A stretch of DNA of 64,000 nt from Actinomycetota bacterium. Its GTDB lineage: Bacteria; Actinomycetota; Acidimicrobiia; Actinomarinales; Actinomarinaceae. The stretch lies in NCBI GenBank assembly GCA_014384285.1, contig JACNGE010000007.1, forward strand, positions 1 to 64,000, read 5' to 3'. Shown here one piece after another: positions 12,695-57,037 of the stretch. Both the position numbers and the translations under genes were made by a program. The notes below the pieces were generated by a model. It made no database searches, was not told the DNA's origin, and was given only the letters and a program-made list of their open reading frames with translations. How positions within the stretch are numbered: the stretch's first letter is position 1; every line of letters begins with the position of its first letter.

Positions 12695-13342
12695 ATGAAA
12701 ATACATGGAAATGAATTTGCATTAGCATCAAAGCTTAATGTTGAGCTAAATAGTGAAGATAATGAAGGGCTTATCTTCATACCTAAAAATATAACCTTGC
12801 TCTTAGAAATTGAAAATTACTATGGGAAAATCATAATTAATAGCCTAAGGCTAGAAACTCAGGAAGATGAATTTTCACTTACTAAAAAAGGACTAGAAGC
12901 TTCTACTGCATCTTTAGATATTAAACTTATCGACAGATATCTTTTCAAAATTCTAGGTGATAAGTCAGGTATAGGTCATTCCCCCTACAGTTATTTTATA
13001 AGCTACGACTTTACTAGTTTCGAAAAAGGGAGGAGGCTCACCGATATAGATTGGGCTATGTTTGCTTCGTTATATGTATTTGCTTGTAATGTACTCCCTG
13101 AATCAGTAAAAGTAGAGTTATCTCTAGCCAAAGAATTGAGGATTTCAGAAGAAAACTTTAAAAGATTTCTTAAAAAAATGCCTAAAACAATTTTCCGTAA
13201 AAATGAACATATTGAATCACGTGGAGGAAATTTAACTTTTGAAGCTGAGGAACTAATCCTCTCAAAACTCAGTAGTGAAAATAAAGTACTGTTTGAAGAA
13301 AGTCCATATTTAAAGTTTTACTCAGGCTCAGATTTAGCCTGA
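12695..13342 (+). CDS. Protein of unknown function, 215 residues
   Basis: No family is recognised. The protein is soluble, with no signal peptide or membrane segment. The N-terminal half is mixed strand and helix (LIFIPKNITLLLEIEN, KIIINSLRLET), and the C-terminal half is helical and basic (ELRISEENFKRFLKKMPKTIFRK). The last part resembles a small helix-turn-helix in composition, but no motif is firm. The ATG has an AAGG about 7 nt upstream and a TATACT box 15 nt upstream. It is divergent from tmRNA and convergent with the PPOX-type gene, overlapping it by 25 nt. Codon and base use match the neighbours, so transfer is not indicated. Confidence 0.7.
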   Translation: MKIHGNEFALASKLNVELNSEDNEGLIFIPKNITLLLEIENYYGKIIINSLRLETQEDEFSLTKKGLEASTASLDIKLIDRYLFKILGDKSGIGHSPYSYFISYDFTSFEKGRRLTDIDWAMFASLYVFACNVLPESVKVELSLAKELRISEENFKRFLKKMPKTIFRKNEHIESRGGNLTFEAEELILSKLSSENKVLFEESPYLKFYSGSDLA

Positions 13343-13758
13343 GGACGAACCATTGAAATTAGTTTGCTTACTTTTATCTTCCACATCTCCCGGTCTTTAA
13401 TTTGAGCCTCATCCCAGCTCACATTTTCATCCCTATTATAAGGGTGACCAGTATATCGATTTGAAACTTTGTCGATATGATTATTAGCAGATTCATTGTC
13501 AATGACTTCCTCTACAATTCCTCGTATCTCCCAACTGGAATACATGGCATGAGGTTCAAAGATTACAAGAGAAATATTATTATTATCACGGATGTTATAA
13601 GTTTTCTGCCTACCTTTTTCAGTATTGATAATTAAGTTATTATCTAAATAATCTATCCACATAAGATGATTTTGAATTTCATGAGTATTCAAATGAGTTG
13701 CCATTGCACAAAACGCATTTCCATCAATTGCGGCTTTTAATTCTTGGGGTAGTTGCAT
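13318..13758 (-). CDS. Pyridoxamine-5'-phosphate-oxidase-like flavin/deazaflavin protein (PPOX/FDOR)
   Basis: A 146-residue split-barrel protein: AIDGNAFCAMATHLNTHEIQ opens the barrel, then HLMWIDYLDNNLIINTEKGRQKTYNIRDN and ISLVIFEPHAMYSSWEIRGIVEEV, the strand order of the FDOR-B group in Actinobacteria. These enzymes bind F420 (or FMN/heme) and reduce or bind diverse ligands. F420 is plausible because cofD and cofE are encoded 20 kb away. The gene is divergent from the selenoprotein candidate with only 30 bp between the two starts, so a shared control region is possible. Cofactor and substrate are inferred. Confidence 0.75.
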   Translation of the reverse strand: MQLPQELKAAIDGNAFCAMATHLNTHEIQNHLMWIDYLDNNLIINTEKGRQKTYNIRDNNNISLVIFEPHAMYSSWEIRGIVEEVIDNESANNHIDKVSNRYTGHPYNRDENVSWDEAQIKDREMWKIKVSKLISMVRPQAKSEPE

Positions 13759-13788
13759 AATTGTAATTTTAAAGCAAAAATATTAGTT

Positions 13789-14352
13789 ATGGCATTTATT
13801 AATATTTTTAATTTTGAAGAATCAACTGGCTTATTAAAAAAAGAATACGAAAAAGGTATCCGAAGGGCCGGTCGGATATGGAAAGTATTAACAATTCAAT
13901 CTCAAACACCTGAGATTCTACAAGACTCCATGCGACTTTACGGATCAACTATGTATGGTAATTCAAAAATAACTAGATTTGATCGTGAGCTTCTAGCCGT
14001 TGTTACTTCAATAGCAAATGAGTGTGAGTATTGAGTACGTTCGCATTTGTACGATCTCCGGTCGGAGACAGAGAATCAGAAACTTGTAGATGAAATTGCC
14101 CATAATTGGAAAAATAGCTCACTTACTGAGACTCAAATAGCAATCTGTCTGTTCGCTGAAAAACTTACACTTCAACCAAGCACTATCTCTAGATTAGATA
14201 TTGAAAATCTATCTAATTTAGATATGAGTGATAAAGAAATTTCTGAAATTGTACAGATCGTTTCATATTTTAATTATATAAATCGAGTTGCTGATGGATT
14301 AGGTCTTGAACCAGAAGAGTTTATAGACGAAAAGGGCTACAAAATTAATTAG
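13789..14352 (+). CDS. AhpD/carboxymuconolactone-decarboxylase-family peroxidase-like protein with in-frame TGA: candidate selenoprotein
   Basis: Reading through a single TGA at 14032-14034 gives 187 residues, the normal size for the 'peroxidase-related enzyme' branch of AhpD-like proteins. The catalytic signature E-x11-C-x2-C-x3-H appears as E67, C79, TGA82 and H86, so the TGA replaces precisely the second, reactive cysteine. Sequence on both sides stays in the same frame and is family-like: RRAGRIWKVLTIQS before it, VSYFNYINRVADGLGLEPEE after it. The flanking halves need no insertion or deletion to join. A hairpin with a GGTC loop follows 25 nt downstream. TGA is a normal stop elsewhere in this window (glmU and rsmA, in ATGA overlaps). 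The start was set at ATG 13789 because MAFINIF matches family N-termini; an upstream TTG (13753) is possible. A sequencing error remains the alternative. Confidence 0.85.
14055..14068 (+). promoter_or_regulatory. Candidate bacterial SECIS hairpin
   Basis: The arms TCTCC (14055-14059) and GGAGA (14064-14068) pair perfectly around the loop GGTC (14060-14063). The loop begins 25 nt after the last base of the in-frame TGA. In the E. coli fdhF SECIS, SelB recognises a GGUC-containing apical loop at a comparable distance. The short stem, the loop identity and the placement inside the coding region all fit; binding by a SelB has not been shown. Confidence 0.7.
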
Positions 14353-17369: not shown

Positions 17370-17618
17370 TCAAACTATTCCCAGTTCTTTTAATTTACTA
17401 TGAAGCTCTAAATCGTTAGGTTCAACTAAAAACGAATCATCTGAAAAAACTATTGTCGGGATTCTTCTTTGATTTTTTTGTAGTTTTGTAATGTAATCAT
17501 TAGCTTCAGAGTTTATATCTACATTGATTTCTTCAAAATCTACATTCAACTTGTTAAGTAAGGCTTTAGATCGTACACAATCCCCGCACCAGTCAGTTGT
17601 GTAAAATTTAATACTCAC
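17370..17618 (-). CDS. Mycoredoxin/glutaredoxin-like protein
   Basis: An 82-residue thioredoxin-fold protein with the active site WCGDC at residues 10-14, followed by VRSKALLNKLNVDFEEINVD and RIPTIVF (cis-proline loop). Overall shape matches actinobacterial mycoredoxin-1 and NrdH-like glutaredoxins, which reduce mixed disulfides with mycothiol. It lies in a tight cluster trxA - small membrane protein - this gene - phosphatase - serA (gaps of 1-2 nt). Whether mycothiol is made cannot be seen in this window. Confidence 0.8.
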   Translation of the reverse strand: MSIKFYTTDWCGDCVRSKALLNKLNVDFEEINVDINSEANDYITKLQKNQRRIPTIVFSDDSFLVEPNDLELHSKLKELGIV

Positions 17619-17904: not shown

Positions 17905-18213
17905 TTAACTTAGAGCAGTAATTTTTTCTTTAATAGTTTCTTTTGGTTGAACACCTACAAAACGTTCTTTTACTTCTCCGTCTTTAAGAATAACTACTGT
18001 TGGAACTCCCATGACTTGATTTGCACCTGCGATTTCAGGGAACTGATCTACATCTAGTTTCACAAAATCTACATTTTCAAGTTCTGATTCTAATTCTTCT
18101 AAAATTGGGCTAAGTACCTTGCAAGGACCACACCAGGTTGCATGGAAATCTATCACTACTGGTTTTTCAGAGTTTTGTATTGCAGCATATTCTTCTGCAT
18201 TAATGTCTTTCAT
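17905..18213 (-). CDS. trxA: Thioredoxin
   Basis: A 102-residue thioredoxin with active site WCGPC near residue 27, DFHATWCGPCKVLSPILEE around it, and the cis-proline loop GVPTVVIL near 71. It is the general disulfide reductant of the cytoplasm. The ATG has a good AAAGGAG 6-7 nt upstream, and a TAGAAT box lies further up. It is first in the five-gene serine/redox operon and divergent from the GGT-like gene. Confidence 0.95.
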   Translation of the reverse strand: MKDINAEEYAAIQNSEKPVVIDFHATWCGPCKVLSPILEELESELENVDFVKLDVDQFPEIAGANQVMGVPTVVILKDGEVKERFVGVQPKETIKEKITALS

Positions 18214-50753: not shown

Positions 50754-52400
50754 TTACACTGAGGCAAAAGAGTCTTTTGCATGATACGAAGACCTTACAA
50801 GGGGACCTGATTCTATATGGGGTATTCCCAAAGATTCACCTATAGATTTATACTTTGAAAATTCTTCTCTTTCTACATACCTATGGATTGGTCTATGTTT
50901 TGCAGTTGGTCTTAAATACTGTCCGATGGTTACAATATCAACATTGATTTGAGATAAATCTTCGAGCACAGCTATTACTTCATCAAATTCTTCTCCCATG
51001 CCAACTATTAAACCAGTTTTAGTTTTACCTAAAAAAGCAGAATCTTTTGCATACTGCAGTAAAGATAACGACCTGCCATAAGATGCTGCTGTTCTTATTT
51101 CTCTTTGGAGTCTTGGGACAGTTTCCAAATTATGGTTTAGCACTTCCGGATTTGCTCTGATAATATTATCAATCGAACTTTTGTCTCCCTTAAAATCAGG
51201 GATTAGAACTTCAACGCTTGTTTCTGGATTAACCCTCTTTATTTCTGTAATTGTCTCTGAAAAAAAATTAGATCCTCCGTCAGAAAGATCGTCTCTATTG
51301 ACTGAAGTGACTACAGCATGAGTAAGCCCCATGGTCTGAACACTTTCAGCTACACGCAAAGGCTCTAAGTCATCTAAGTCACATGGTTTTCCTGTATTCA
51401 CATCACAAAAACCGCAGGCTCTTGTACAAGTATCTCCCATTATCATAAAAGTCGCAGTTCCCATAGACCAGCATTCATATATATTTGGACAAGATGCTTC
51501 TTCACAGACAGTGTTTAATTTTTTTTCAGAAATAAGATTCTTCAAATCTCTGTAGTCTTTTCCTAAGTTAGCTTTTACTTTCATCCATTCAGGCCTTTGA
51601 GGCTCATCTGGAAGCAAGCCCTTTATGGTAATTGGAATAATATTTTTATTTTTTTGGAAAACACCCCTATCAACCATCTCATCTATTTCATGTGTTTTTT
51701 GCTTTTTAAGTTGGGTGGGGGTGAATTGAGACATCTGTACATCAGTATCTTGATACCCATAAACTACAGGGAAAATTTCATTAACTTTTTTTACAACATC
51801 ATCAAAAGAAACCTCTTTATTAAATGTTTGAACTGCTGCTATCTTTTCTTCTTCATTCCCACAAGGATTAATTAAATTAAAGCCATCTAGATTATCAAAT
51901 ATATTTAATGAAAATCCATGATAAGTTGTCCACTTACTTACCTTTATACCTATAGACGCTATCTTCCCTTCTGAAGTCCACACCCCTGTGTCATCTTCTT
52001 TAGAAAAAGAATCTATATTAAAACTTTTTAGTGTTTCAATAATTGTTGTTTCTAAACTTCTAACAAAAGGTATTACTTTTTTTGGATCTTCTAACCTAAT
52101 TATTGGATAGCCAATTAATTGACCCTTGCCATGAAAAGTTACATCTCCACCACGGTCAGTTTCAAAAAATTCTATACCTTTTTTTTCTAACTGGTCACTA
52201 TCTAAAAGAATATTTTTAGGATCTCCTGTTCGTCCAATGGTTATTACATTGTTATGTTCAAGAAGTAGTAAATAGTCATAGAGGTTGTATTCATTTGAAA
52301 CAGACTCTTTGAGACCTTTTTGTAAAATTAAAGCTTCGGAGTAAGGAAGGCTACCAAGCCATCTAATATTTAGTTTTCTCAATTTAGGTCTTCTGACCAA
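50754..52400 (-). CDS. Fused octanoyltransferase-lipoyl synthase (LipB-LipA)
   Basis: A 548-residue fusion. Residues about 10-220 are LipB: RGGDVTFHGKGQLIGYP (83-99), the active-site lysine K146 in GKIASIG, and the catalytic cysteine C180 in NPCG. Residues about 255-548 are LipA, a radical-SAM enzyme: auxiliary cluster C299-x4-C304-x5-C310, SAM cluster C325-x3-C329-x2-C332, and the C-terminal RSSYHA serine ligand. LipB moves octanoate from ACP to lipoyl domains, and LipA inserts two sulfurs. The linker is short (about 30 residues, KKQKTHEIDEMVDRG). The gene overlaps the E2 gene by 22 nt, directly linking lipoylation to its target. Both halves keep their key residues, so both should be active. 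Confidence 0.93.
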   Translation of the reverse strand: MVRRPKLRKLNIRWLGSLPYSEALILQKGLKESVSNEYNLYDYLLLLEHNNVITIGRTGDPKNILLDSDQLEKKGIEFFETDRGGDVTFHGKGQLIGYPIIRLEDPKKVIPFVRSLETTIIETLKSFNIDSFSKEDDTGVWTSEGKIASIGIKVSKWTTYHGFSLNIFDNLDGFNLINPCGNEEEKIAAVQTFNKEVSFDDVVKKVNEIFPVVYGYQDTDVQMSQFTPTQLKKQKTHEIDEMVDRGVFQKNKNIIPITIKGLLPDEPQRPEWMKVKANLGKDYRDLKNLISEKKLNTVCEEASCPNIYECWSMGTATFMIMGDTCTRACGFCDVNTGKPCDLDDLEPLRVAESVQTMGLTHAVVTSVNRDDLSDGGSNFFSETITEIKRVNPETSVEVLIPDFKGDKSSIDNIIRANPEVLNHNLETVPRLQREIRTAASYGRSLSLLQYAKDSAFLGKTKTGLIVGMGEEFDEVIAVLEDLSQINVDIVTIGQYLRPTAKHRPIHRYVEREEFSKYKSIGESLGIPHIESGPLVRSSYHAKDSFASV

Positions 52401-53659
52401 GTATGATTTTCTAACTGGTCTTTAATGCTATTTAGAAACAAAAGTGCCGTTGAGCCATCAAACACTCGATGATCCCACGTAAGACTGAGTAAACCAGTAT
52501 TTCTTATTGCTATTGAATCCGATCCATCTGCAGATTCTATAACAACTGGTTTCTTTTTTATTGACTCAGTAGAAAGTATTGCTACGTTTGGCTGATTAAT
52601 TATTGGAGAAGTGAGAAATGAATTAAATGATCCGTTGTTAGAAATTGTGAATGTACTTCCAGTTACATCTTCTAAACCATATTCCTTACCTCTTAGCTGT
52701 TTAGAAACTTCTGTAATCTTTCTTGCAAGTCCTCGAAGATTAAATGAATCAGAATCCTTTATAGTCCCGACAAGCAATCCCTCTCTATTAAGATCAACAG
52801 CAATCCCTAAATTTATGAAATCATGATATTCATGAACATTGTTTTCTAAGTCAAATGAGCTATTAACTACTGGGTACTCACGCAATGCGTTAGTGGTAGC
52901 AACTGAGATGAATGGTAGAAACGTGAGAGAGAATCCTTCCTTTTGCTTAAACTCTGATTTAACTTTATTTCTTAATGTCGCAATATTTTCAAAATCAACT
53001 TCTACTGAAGTCATGACATGTGCAGAGGTTTGTTTTGAAAGGATCATATTCTCTGCAATTCTCTTTCTTAATCTTGGAATATTTCCACTAGTAGCTTTCT
53101 TTGGCTCTTCAGAATTAATTGGCTCAGATATTTCATTCTTTACCTCTTTCTCTTGTGGCTTCACTACTTCACCAGAATCAAGTATCTTTTCAATATCTTT
53201 GCGAGTAATACGATTATCCTTACCAGTTCCTGAAACCTGTGAAAGGTTAATATTATTTTCTTTTGCAAGTTTTCTTACAATTGGCGAAAGTTTCTGATCT
53301 CTATTATTTGTGACTTGGGTAGATGTTTCTGTAGTCTCAATTTTTACTTCTGGAATTTTTTCACTCATATTTTCTTTTACAACTTCAGCTTCTTCTTTGG
53401 GTTTTTCACTTGTAGAATTGCCATCTCCACCTAATTCCATTAAAGAAACTCCCACTTCGACTGTTTCACCCTCTTCAACAAGTAATGCTGTAACTTCTCC
53501 CGCAAATGGTGAGGGGACTTCCGTGTCTACCTTATCGGTTGAGATTTCAAGGATTGGGTCATCCTCTTTAACTACATCTCCAACTGAGACAAGCCACCTT
53601 AGAATAGTTCCTTCGGTTACTGTTTCGCCTAATTGAGGCATTTTTACAATTTCACCCAT
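52379..53659 (-). CDS. 2-oxoacid dehydrogenase E2 (dihydrolipoyl acyltransferase)
   Basis: A 426-residue E2. A single lipoyl domain (about 1-78, lysine in STDKVDTEVPSP near 43) is followed by an acidic linker, a peripheral-subunit-binding domain (about 125-162, SPIVRKLAKENNINLSQVSG) and the catalytic domain (about 195-426) ending with WDHRVFDG, the acyltransferase H-x3-D-G motif. It carries acyl groups between E1 and CoA. One lipoyl domain resembles branched-chain and succinyl-type E2 rather than multi-lipoyl pyruvate E2, so branched-chain 2-oxoacids are a reasonable first guess. Confidence 0.92.
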   Translation of the reverse strand: MGEIVKMPQLGETVTEGTILRWLVSVGDVVKEDDPILEISTDKVDTEVPSPFAGEVTALLVEEGETVEVGVSLMELGGDGNSTSEKPKEEAEVVKENMSEKIPEVKIETTETSTQVTNNRDQKLSPIVRKLAKENNINLSQVSGTGKDNRITRKDIEKILDSGEVVKPQEKEVKNEISEPINSEEPKKATSGNIPRLRKRIAENMILSKQTSAHVMTSVEVDFENIATLRNKVKSEFKQKEGFSLTFLPFISVATTNALREYPVVNSSFDLENNVHEYHDFINLGIAVDLNREGLLVGTIKDSDSFNLRGLARKITEVSKQLRGKEYGLEDVTGSTFTISNNGSFNSFLTSPIINQPNVAILSTESIKKKPVVIESADGSDSIAIRNTGLLSLTWDHRVFDGSTALLFLNSIKDQLENHTWSEDLN

Positions 53660-53663
53660 TATT

Positions 53664-55670
53664 CTATTGTAATTCTTTGATAGCTTTTACAACATTTTCA
53701 GCACTAGGAATAAAACTGTCTTCTAGTACAGGAGCAAATGGTATATGAGTATTTGGCGCAGTAACTTTAACAATAGGGTTATCCAAAGTCCAAAAACCTT
53801 TATCTGCAACAAAAGACGAGATTTCAGATGCTATTGATGAAAAGGGGACATCTTCTTGAAGAATTACTAAGTTTGAAGTTTTTTCTACAGATTTTAAAAT
53901 TGTTTCTTCATCTATTGGAAAAATACTTCTTAAGTCAATGACCTCAACAGAAACACCTTCATCATTTAAAGTTGCAGCTGCTTCAAGAGCGGTTGGAACC
54001 ATTCCTGACCAAGCAACTAAAGTGACATCAGAACCTTCTTTTACAATATTTGCCTTACCGATTTCAACCTCATACAAGCCGACAGGTACTTCCATTTTTA
54101 AGTCAGGTTTTCTATAAAGTTTTTTATGTTCCAAAAACATAACAGGATTGGGATCGTTGATTGAAGCAATCAATAATCCTTTGGCATCATAAGGGTTTGC
54201 TGGTGCAACTACTTTAATACCCGGATGATGTGCTAAAAGAGACTCCGGACTAATTGAGTGAAAAGGACCAGACCTTGTTCCTGCGCCTGTAGGTCCCCGT
54301 ACGACCATAGGAACAGGTTTTCCAGCTTTCCAGTAATATTTTGCAGCTTCAGTCGTGATCTGATCAAGAGCGGGATAAACAAAATCAAAAAATTGAAGTT
54401 CAACTATTGGTATCTTTCCATATAAAGCAGCACCTACAGCTGCTCCCATAAATGCACCTTCAGAAATAGGTGTGTCTAATACTCTATTTGAACCATATTT
54501 TTCATGAAGTCCTTTAGTTGCTTTGAAAGCTCCTTCAAATGCTCCTATATCTTCACCCATCATGAATACATCTGAGTTATTTTCCATAGCTTCATCCAGC
54601 CCATTCGTGATGGCTTCTATGAAATTCATAGTTTTTGTATTTGAACCATCATTTTTAGAGACAGGGGTCATTCTCTCTTGGAATATCTCTAATATTTCTT
54701 CATCTGGATTTGGGTCTGCTTGGTTTTTTGCCCACTCCAATGTTTCTCTAACTTCTGTGTCAATTTCTTCTGCAAGTGCAGTAAAATCTTTCTCTGTGAA
54801 AAGAGTTTCTCTGATTAAAGAATCTTCAAATCTAGTAATCGGATCTCTATCCATCCAAAACTCTCGGACCTCATCACCAACATATTCAGCAGGATCATGA
54901 CCAGCATGGCCATAGTGTCTAAAAGTTACGAGTTCTATTAGAGTAGGACCATTTCCAGAGTTAGCTTTTTCACGAGCTTTATGCATTGTATTTATAACTT
55001 CATAAATATTATTTCCATCGATAATTACTGACTCTATCCCATAGCCAAGTCCCCTATCGGCTACATTAGGTGTTCCAAACTCTGTTTCATTTGGAGAAGA
55101 ATAAGCAAACTGATTATTTTGTACAGTAAAAATAATTGGTAGATTGTGAACACCTGCCATGTTAATACTTTCATGCCATGTTCCTGTTGCAGTTGCTCCT
55201 TCACCACAATTTGCAACCGCGACTACATTATTTTTTTCAAACTGGGCAGTAAGCGCAACACCGACAGCAACTGGAGCAGAATCTGGTAACGGGGAGACAA
55301 CCATCAATGTTCCCTTGTCAACCACTCCAAAGTGACTATTGCCATCTCTACCTTTTGATGGACCATCCTTTTTACCATAAAAATTTAATGCAATTTCTTT
55401 GAGCGTTACTCCCCGTTTAATCTGCACACCAAGATCTCTGTGTGTTCCTCCAAACACATCTTGACTCTCCATGCCGGCACCGATGCCAGCCATTGAAGCC
55501 TCTTGACCTATACCTGGATAAACTGCTCCTGAAAGTTGGCCTCCTTTATACATTTTTAGAAGCCTGTCTTCTAGAATCCTTTGAGTTTTCATTGACTTGT
55601 ATATATCCCACAATTCGTCTTTAGTCAAAGTTGCTGAATGTCCTACTCGTTCTATTTTCTTTACTTCCAC
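53664..55670 (-). CDS. 2-oxoacid dehydrogenase E1, alpha and beta subunits fused
   Basis: A 668-residue ThDP enzyme. Residues about 15-330 are E1 alpha (PGIGQEASMAGIGAGM, TPP motif NCGEGATATGTWHES then NNQFAYS, and FRHYGHAGHDPAEY). Residues about 345-668 are E1 beta (FIEAITNGLDEAM, GEDIGAFEGAFKATKGL, PISEGAFMGAAVGAAL, GPTGAGTRSGPFHS). Such fusions are known in BCKDH/acetoin-type E1 proteins. It decarboxylates the 2-oxoacid and loads E2. Pyruvate, 2-oxoisovalerate and related acids are all possible. It sits between lpd (1-nt overlap) and the E2 gene (4-nt spacer). Confidence 0.92.
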   Translation of the reverse strand: MEVKKIERVGHSATLTKDELWDIYKSMKTQRILEDRLLKMYKGGQLSGAVYPGIGQEASMAGIGAGMESQDVFGGTHRDLGVQIKRGVTLKEIALNFYGKKDGPSKGRDGNSHFGVVDKGTLMVVSPLPDSAPVAVGVALTAQFEKNNVVAVANCGEGATATGTWHESINMAGVHNLPIIFTVQNNQFAYSSPNETEFGTPNVADRGLGYGIESVIIDGNNIYEVINTMHKAREKANSGNGPTLIELVTFRHYGHAGHDPAEYVGDEVREFWMDRDPITRFEDSLIRETLFTEKDFTALAEEIDTEVRETLEWAKNQADPNPDEEILEIFQERMTPVSKNDGSNTKTMNFIEAITNGLDEAMENNSDVFMMGEDIGAFEGAFKATKGLHEKYGSNRVLDTPISEGAFMGAAVGAALYGKIPIVELQFFDFVYPALDQITTEAAKYYWKAGKPVPMVVRGPTGAGTRSGPFHSISPESLLAHHPGIKVVAPANPYDAKGLLIASINDPNPVMFLEHKKLYRKPDLKMEVPVGLYEVEIGKANIVKEGSDVTLVAWSGMVPTALEAAATLNDEGVSVEVIDLRSIFPIDEETILKSVEKTSNLVILQEDVPFSSIASEISSFVADKGFWTLDNPIVKVTAPNTHIPFAPVLEDSFIPSAENVVKAIKELQ

Positions 55671-57037
55671 TAGTGAAGCCCCTTTCCATTTAATGACAAT
55701 AGTGACTCCCCGACTGCTTCGCTTAGTGTCGGATGAGCATGTATAAATTCTGCAGCTTCAGCAGGCAGAGCTTCCCAACCTACCATGTACATTAGTTCAT
55801 GAATCATTTCTCCAGCACTTGGACCGCAAATGCTTGCACCAACTATAGGTCCGTTTTTCTCTGCATAAACTTTTACTAAACCCTGGTTACTGTTCTGAAT
55901 CATGGCTCTTCCGATTCCAGCAAAGGAGTGTTGTGCTTGATCAACTTCAATTTCCTTTAGCTTTGCTTTATCGGAATTTAAACCTACTTCAGCTAATTCT
56001 GGGTTTGTGTATACAACATAGGGTATTGCAGAATAGTTAATTGGACTTGCAACTCCAGTTGCGATATAAGAAACTGCACACATAGCTTCAGCAAAAGCAA
56101 CATGCGCTAACTGAGGAGCATTACTGATAATATCCCCGGCAGCAAAAATATTTTCTTTGCCATTTACCTGCATAGTTTCAAGATTGACATCTATATAGCC
56201 ATTTGTAGTTGTTACAGAAATATCTTCTAACCCAATGTTTTCAGTCAAAGGACTTCTTCCAATCGCAACTAAAACTGTATCGAATGTTTCTTTTTCACCA
56301 TCAGAAAATATTATTTCTTTATCTTTAACAGAGTCTATTGACGTACCCATTTTGAAGATAACGCCTCTTTTTGTTAATTGTTTTCTTAATTCACCTGATG
56401 TTCTTTTATCAAAACCTGGAAGTATTTCTTTTTCCAATTCTACCACTGTGACAGTGGAGCCAAGGTCAGTTAACAGGCTTGCAAACTCACAACCTATTGC
56501 ACCTGCACCAACTACACATACTTTTGAAGGAGGTTTTTCCCAATTGAGTGCTGAATCAGAATTGATTATAAATTCGTTATCATACTTTAGACTAGCTAAT
56601 TCTCTTGGTTTGGAACCTGTAGCAAGAAGTATGTAATCAGTCTGAATTAATTCTTCTGAACCATCTTCTTTTTTGACGAGAACCGAGTTTTCATTTTTTA
56701 TCTTCCCCCATCCATTAACAACATTTACTTTTTTACTTTTAAGCAACATGCCAATCCCGCCAACTAATTTTGATACAATATCTTGTCTTTTAGTGGAAGC
56801 TTTTTTCCAATCTATTTCTGAGGTTTTAACTTGTATTCCAAAATCAGATGCATTATTTATTTCATGATTTAGTTCAGCAAGGTGTAGCCAGTATTTTGCA
56901 GGTATACATCCCCTGTTTAGACAAGTACCTCCAAGTACGTCAGACTCGATAATTGTTACATCTAGATCAAAGTTGTTTGCATAAAGCGCAGCTGCATATC
57001 CAGCTGGGCCACCGCCAATAATGGTTAATTTTTTCAA
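55670..57037 (-). CDS. lpdA: Dihydrolipoyl dehydrogenase (E3)
   Basis: A 455-residue FAD disulfide reductase. FAD loop IGGGPAGYAAALYA at 6-19, redox pair GGTCLNRGCIPAKYWL near 38-53 (C-x4-C), NAD loop VVGAGAIGCEFASLL near 173, and the catalytic HAHPTLSEAVGE near 435. It reoxidises lipoyl groups. Start is TTG with AGAGGT about 3-8 nt upstream. First gene of lpd-E1-E2-lipBA, preceded by a leader with two hairpins. Confidence 0.95.
   Translation of the reverse strand: MKKLTIIGGGPAGYAAALYANNFDLDVTIIESDVLGGTCLNRGCIPAKYWLHLAELNHEINNASDFGIQVKTSEIDWKKASTKRQDIVSKLVGGIGMLLKSKKVNVVNGWGKIKNENSVLVKKEDGSEELIQTDYILLATGSKPRELASLKYDNEFIINSDSALNWEKPPSKVCVVGAGAIGCEFASLLTDLGSTVTVVELEKEILPGFDKRTSGELRKQLTKRGVIFKMGTSIDSVKDKEIIFSDGEKETFDTVLVAIGRSPLTENIGLEDISVTTTNGYIDVNLETMQVNGKENIFAAGDIISNAPQLAHVAFAEAMCAVSYIATGVASPINYSAIPYVVYTNPELAEVGLNSDKAKLKEIEVDQAQHSFAGIGRAMIQNSNQGLVKVYAEKNGPIVGASICGPSAGEMIHELMYMVGWEALPAEAAEFIHAHPTLSEAVGESLLSLNGKGLH

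Follow-up and report, generated by a model that had tools for sequence, protein, structure and literature searches.

A predicted AhpD-like selenoprotein in Candidatus Actinomarina and related Acidimicrobiia, and its candidate electron donor

Does a TGA codon that falls at the second active-site cysteine of an AhpD-family gene encode selenocysteine (Sec), and, if so, which chemistry would the protein perform and from where would it draw its electrons? We addressed these questions for a gene at 13789-14352 of a 64,000-nucleotide stretch of DNA (hereafter the window), in which an earlier note had recognized a candidate selenoprotein of a streamlined marine actinobacterium. The organism had been judged correctly, as the named records of the relatives belong to Candidatus Actinomarina, the OCS155 cluster or Acidimicrobiia. 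We conclude that 13789-14352 almost certainly encodes a real selenoprotein, in which UGA is decoded as Sec; the case is built on comparison of sequences.

An AhpD-family gene with one in-frame TGA

The gene and the features that bear on its decoding are as follows.

13789..14352, + strand: AhpD-like selenoprotein gene (predicted), 187 aa, TIGR01926 / PF02627
14023..14025, + strand: codon of C79, presumed resolving cysteine of C-x2-U, invariant in alignments
14032..14034, + strand: in-frame TGA, assigned by comparison with relatives as selenocysteine U82, second Cys of CxxC
14055-14068, + strand: predicted bacterial SECIS hairpin core UCUCC-GGUC-GGAGA, from covariation, slid controls and frozen codons 91-93
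13318..13758, - strand: divergent FDOR/PPOX-type protein, PF01243, 30 bp from the Sec gene

Translated with TGA as U, the frame gives 187 residues with a single recoded codon, U82, and ends at a TAG stop (14350-14352). The AhpD motif reads E67-x11-C79-x-Y81-U82-x3-H86, with the TGA exactly at the second, reactive cysteine. When C replaces U, the matches to TIGR01926 (124.1 bits, cut-off 81.8) and PF02627 (39.7 bits, cut-off 23) both span the TGA; the score against TIGR00777, the model for canonical AhpD, is below its curated cut-off (15.2 versus 191.95 bits). E67, C79, Y81, position 82 and H86 are invariant in the alignments and correspond to the five residues of the AhpD-like proton relay; such a relay (Glu, Cys, Tyr/His, Cys, His) is used by PA0269 and M. 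tuberculosis AhpD (PMC3141380). Elsewhere in the window TGA is a stop, ending seven of the 46 open reading frames (ORFs) of at least 180 aa, and in six of these seven only 0-7 codons separate it from the next stop. The TGA=U translation, the family profiles and the ORF ends thus bear out what the earlier note had claimed of the gene, namely that E67, C79, TGA82 and H86 form the family motif, that TGA replaces the second reactive cysteine in a continuous frame of length 187, and that TGA otherwise still terminates translation. The same note had placed a 30-bp divergent region between this gene and a PPOX/FDOR protein, and the PF01243 match on the opposite strand confirms it; the best NCBIfam model for that neighbour is TIGR03618, at a score below its cut-off. 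The intergenic region itself (13759-13788) carries a TTTTAAG/CAAAAAT-like box near the start codon, kept in 30 genus loci, and the mRNA may be nearly leaderless.

Conservation of the TGA, its SECIS element and the Sec machinery

We found the gene in 32 of the 42 genomes of the genus, and every orthologue has exactly one in-frame TGA, which lies at codon 82 in all 30 that were read out. Many of these orthologues come from independent single-cell or metagenome assemblies, and the frame downstream of the TGA is conserved among them. Gene order is largely kept across 31 named loci (ABC transporter, LhgO, an unknown gene, FDOR, Sec-AhpD, a DUF3152 protein, SerA and usually HisN, Grx and Trx), FDOR adjoining the Sec gene in 31 of 31; selA scores above its cut-off in 34 of the 42 genomes. 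Among the 10 genomes in which the gene is absent, nine have no FDOR orthologue either; as LhgO is also missing from eight of those nine and present only as fragments in the ninth, an assembly gap and a larger deletion are indistinguishable there. The only clean absence is in G013 (locus L142, G013:C32), where the Sec gene is gone with its neighbours in place, FDOR and the DUF3152 gene lying 84 bp apart; this genome still has selA.

Across the class, which we take from the named records to be Acidimicrobiia (395 genomes surveyed), the TGA form was found in 81 genomes outside the genus. Of these, 75 have selA, compared with 150 of 272 others (P = 3e-11, Fisher test), and the six TGA-bearing genomes in which selA was not detected are all less than 90% complete. 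The alternation of Cys and TGA that had been proposed for the codon 82 column is indeed seen: in 40 more distant loci that were read out, the second Cys codon is TGA in 30, TGT/TGC in nine and TTA in one. The tree has two Sec clades, with most Cys homologues falling outside them; it needs three label changes, one of the Cys rows being unsure on its long branch. Clade A comprises Actinomarina and two other families, and clade B is a paralogue found in many genomes (L115-L126), several of which have both. The TTA (Leu) codon occurs in a clade-B relative (L127; G305:C116, reverse strand) that retains the SECIS stem-loop; selA was not found in its genome (79% complete), and the change would be explained if Sec was lost recently or if the assembly is wrong at this codon.

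The earlier note had proposed a search for a bacterial SECIS over 14035-14080, and a hairpin is found at 14055-14068. It begins 20 nt past the TGA and agrees with published rules for loop, stem and spacing (PMC13188914), having a 4-nt GGUC loop (14060-14063) 25 nt past the TGA and a stem of 5 bp. Its folding energy by itself is ordinary (z -0.5 to -1.0), at -10.5 kcal/mol for 14035-14079 with the lower helix included and -6.4 for the hairpin alone, where the published rule is -7.5 or lower; the case for the SECIS therefore rests on comparison. In clade A, columns 24/37 alternate between C-G and U-A with 12 double changes, and 85.8% of stem cells pair, against 32-49% in slid controls. Clade B has a different stem, with an invariant GGUCU loop, 98.3% pairing and exchanges among G-C, C-G, A-U and U-A. 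Within the genus, codons 91-93 are CGG-TCG-GAG in all 30 of these AT-rich genomes, synonyms that end in G (GC3 of 1.0, where invariant positions average 0.20).

The genome containing the window (1.10 Mb, 92% complete) was searched for selA, selB, selD and tRNA-Sec, and all four, which the earlier note had expected, are present. The tRNA-Sec lies at C12:85739-85829 (75.3 bits; SeC(tca) by ARAGORN) and selA at C6:14547-15818 (365.7 bits). The end of selA is overlapped by 4 nt by selB (556 aa), for which the best family is TIGR00475, at 194 bits under the curated cut-off of 242; its winged-helix domain SelB-wing_3 scores 45.9 bits, above cut-off. The selD gene is at C12:57276-58202 (L017 1498-2529; 357.9 bits). 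With tRNA-Sec, SelA, SelB and SelD encoded and a SECIS following the UGA, Sec82 is predicted at the position of the homologues' second CxxC cysteine.

We also looked for further cases. A SECIS covariance model (R1) run on the genome placed only the Sec-AhpD gene above noise and so reveals no further selenoproteins. SelD is itself a selenoprotein by its own in-frame TGA, in HGSGUACK, and its downstream fold differs from the AhpD SECIS. When the window was scanned for further genes interrupted by TGA, only short segments came up, taken as shadow frames. Neither of the genome's two AhpC-TSA proteins contains an in-frame TGA, and no relative was found in the viral contigs scanned. Close to one of these AhpC-TSA family genes is a rhodopsin-like membrane protein, named by eye (L167, 2615-3280, - strand).

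Two other readings of the TGA were weighed against Sec. On the first, an ordinary Cys-type AhpD would have been cut short by a mutation that made it a pseudogene, or would look so through an error of sequencing; all that favours this is that the window genome is a draft in 17 contigs. Such an event is at odds with one in-frame TGA in 32 of 32 genus orthologues, many from independent assemblies, with a frame conserved past the TGA and with frozen SECIS codons; we rejected this explanation as refuted by TGA conservation, and give it practically no chance of being right. On the second, TGA would be read as another amino acid such as Trp (e.g. code 4) or suppressed with no Sec inserted; nothing was found in favour of this, although codes of the kind exist in other bacteria. 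TGA ends seven of the 46 long ORFs of the window, relatives have Cys and not Trp at the column, and tRNA-Sec, SelA, SelB and SelD are present, on which grounds another genetic code was rejected as extremely improbable.

Fold, chemistry and candidate electron donors

An AlphaFold2 model built from 29 window and Actinomarina sequences has the all-helical AhpD fold (pLDDT 87.7, pTM 0.84). In Foldseek its top match is D. radiodurans AhpD DR1765 (6k40, TM 0.76), followed by 3c1l, 2pfx, 2oyo and 2prr, all of them peroxidase-related or antioxidant proteins, with 23-31% identity to the peroxidase-related group. These five are the best matches in both sequence and fold and have the same active-site residues, except that they have Cys where the Actinomarina protein has Sec. 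Deletion of the D. radiodurans homologue makes cells more sensitive to H2O2, and CxxC mutants complement poorly (PMC8945050). Whatever its donor, the protein is very probably a selenoprotein with AhpD-type redox chemistry; judged by its family, redox chemistry on peroxides or disulfides is plausible, and in our view probable. By family analogy, E67, Y81 and H86 would tune Sec82 for attack on a peroxide (or on a disulfide), after which C79 would act as the resolving residue and form a Cys-Sec bond.

The genes of the window that bear on the supply of electrons to this bond are listed below.

50754..52400, - strand: LipB-LipA in one open frame, which makes the lipoyl group; TIGR00214 and TIGR00510 above cut-offs
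52379..53659, - strand: lipoyl-domain E2 of a 2-oxoacid dehydrogenase, candidate donor; PF00198, PF00364, PF02817
53664..55670, - strand: fused E1 alpha-beta of the complex of this E2; PF00676, PF02779, PF02780
55670..57037, - strand: dihydrolipoyl dehydrogenase (Lpd), candidate NADH-side reductase; TIGR01350, 453 bits versus cut-off 408.8
17905..18213, - strand: thioredoxin (Trx), possible alternative donor; PF00085, kept in the vicinity of the Sec gene in almost every Actinomarina locus
17370..17618, - strand: glutaredoxin-like protein (Grx), possible alternative donor; PF00462

In one relative family of clade A (f10), we found the order E1beta-E2-AhpD(Sec) in all seven informative loci (L097, L098, L099, L100, L102, L103 and L104; an eighth, L105, begins at a contig edge). 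The Sec gene lies directly behind the lipoyl E2 in six of them, overlapping it or within 8 nt, and in L103 one SnoaL-like ORF intervenes. This order points to reduction by a lipoyl protein and Lpd, as in M. tuberculosis, where AhpD is fed by an NADH-Lpd-DlaT chain (PMC12028322; also PMC8945050). The E2 of the window is a homologue of the one that adjoins the Sec gene in these relatives, and LipB-LipA, E2, E1 and Lpd stand in a row at 50754-57037, about 36-43 kb from the Sec gene. The continuous LipB-LipA frame (octanoyltransferase and lipoyl synthase) is either a fusion or two in-frame genes. On this route the Cys-Sec bond would be reduced by the lipoyl arm of the 2-oxoacid dehydrogenase E2, as the gene order of the relatives suggests, and the arm would be recharged from NADH via Lpd, as for M. 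tuberculosis AhpD. That protein shares the E-x11-C-x2-C-x3-H relay (1knc, 1gu9) and the lipoyl/Lpd link is drawn by analogy with it; however, it is distant (8% identity, TM 0.45-0.58), and the Actinomarina gene has no AhpC-type neighbour. We favour lipoyl/Lpd as the reductant, at somewhat less than an even chance.

The real rival is that the selenoprotein is fed by Trx or Grx, or that it is an adaptor reducing a one-domain AhpC-TSA peroxiredoxin and not itself a peroxidase. The E2 link is confined to one relative family, whereas in Actinomarina the Sec gene lies about 38 kb from E2 and adjoins FDOR, with Trx and Grx nearer, 3-4 kb off in nearly all loci; an AhpC-TSA protein is present in the genome, and AhpD serves AhpC in M. 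tuberculosis (PMC12028322). On the other hand, the gene has no operon link to Trx, the nearby genes are on the opposite strand with several others between, and the tight link in relatives is with E2; we regard this alternative as possible, if on the doubtful side. A role in reductive dehalogenation, like that of the AhpD-fold debrominase Bmp8, was also weighed. Selenols work in deiodinases, and the structural matches include Bmp8 (6ohj, 6ohi) at a TM of about 0.70. Identity to Bmp8 is 16-17%, against 23-31% for the peroxidase-related group, which also supplies the best sequence matches, and we consider dehalogenation very unlikely. Returning to the lipoyl route, the Sec-AhpD proteins of the class might be selenol-based peroxidases that receive their electrons from a 2-oxoacid dehydrogenase through its lipoyl arm, a reading that we put forward tentatively.

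Relation to known selenoproteins and significance

The family is already known. AhpD-like CxxU selenoproteins (COG2128) were described from the Global Ocean Sampling (GOS) in 2008 (299 sequences; PMC2398784), so the earlier note was right that such proteins had been reported from marine metagenomes. They are listed in reviews (PMC9312934, which assigns TIGR01926, and PMC13188914) and, at 9.5% of marine selenoprotein genes, are among the commonest (PMC9402790). The Actinomarina protein agrees with the description of GOS 'AhpD-like 1' (TIGR01926 / COG2128) in family model, CxxU motif and marine origin; what differs is that the host lineage (Candidatus Actinomarina and its class), the SECIS and the gene context are given here. 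NF041238, the AhpD-related (seleno)protein (CFYUT), is likewise AhpD-like with CxxU, but its model is longer (357 positions) and our protein reaches 51 bits against a cut-off of 175.

In the literature searched, which covered few subscription papers, we found no text that mentions Actinomarina, OCS155 or Actinomarinales in connection with selenoproteins or selenocysteine, and the searchable text of the surveys does not name Actinomarina as a host of AhpD-like selenoproteins. Within that literature, the wide presence of the protein and its two Sec clades across the class are apparently new, as is, apparently, the E1beta-E2-AhpD(Sec) gene order of one relative family.

Standard gene callers break such genes at the TGA. 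The present results give a host lineage, marine actinobacteria with very small genomes, for a type of selenoprotein that is common in the sea, and the E2-coupled order in relatives moves beyond the label 'peroxidase-related enzyme' to a claim about the electron donor that can be tested. If that claim is true, an antioxidant branch would be tied to central metabolism via a selenium enzyme, and would have been kept even in the Actinomarina genome of about 1.1 Mb.
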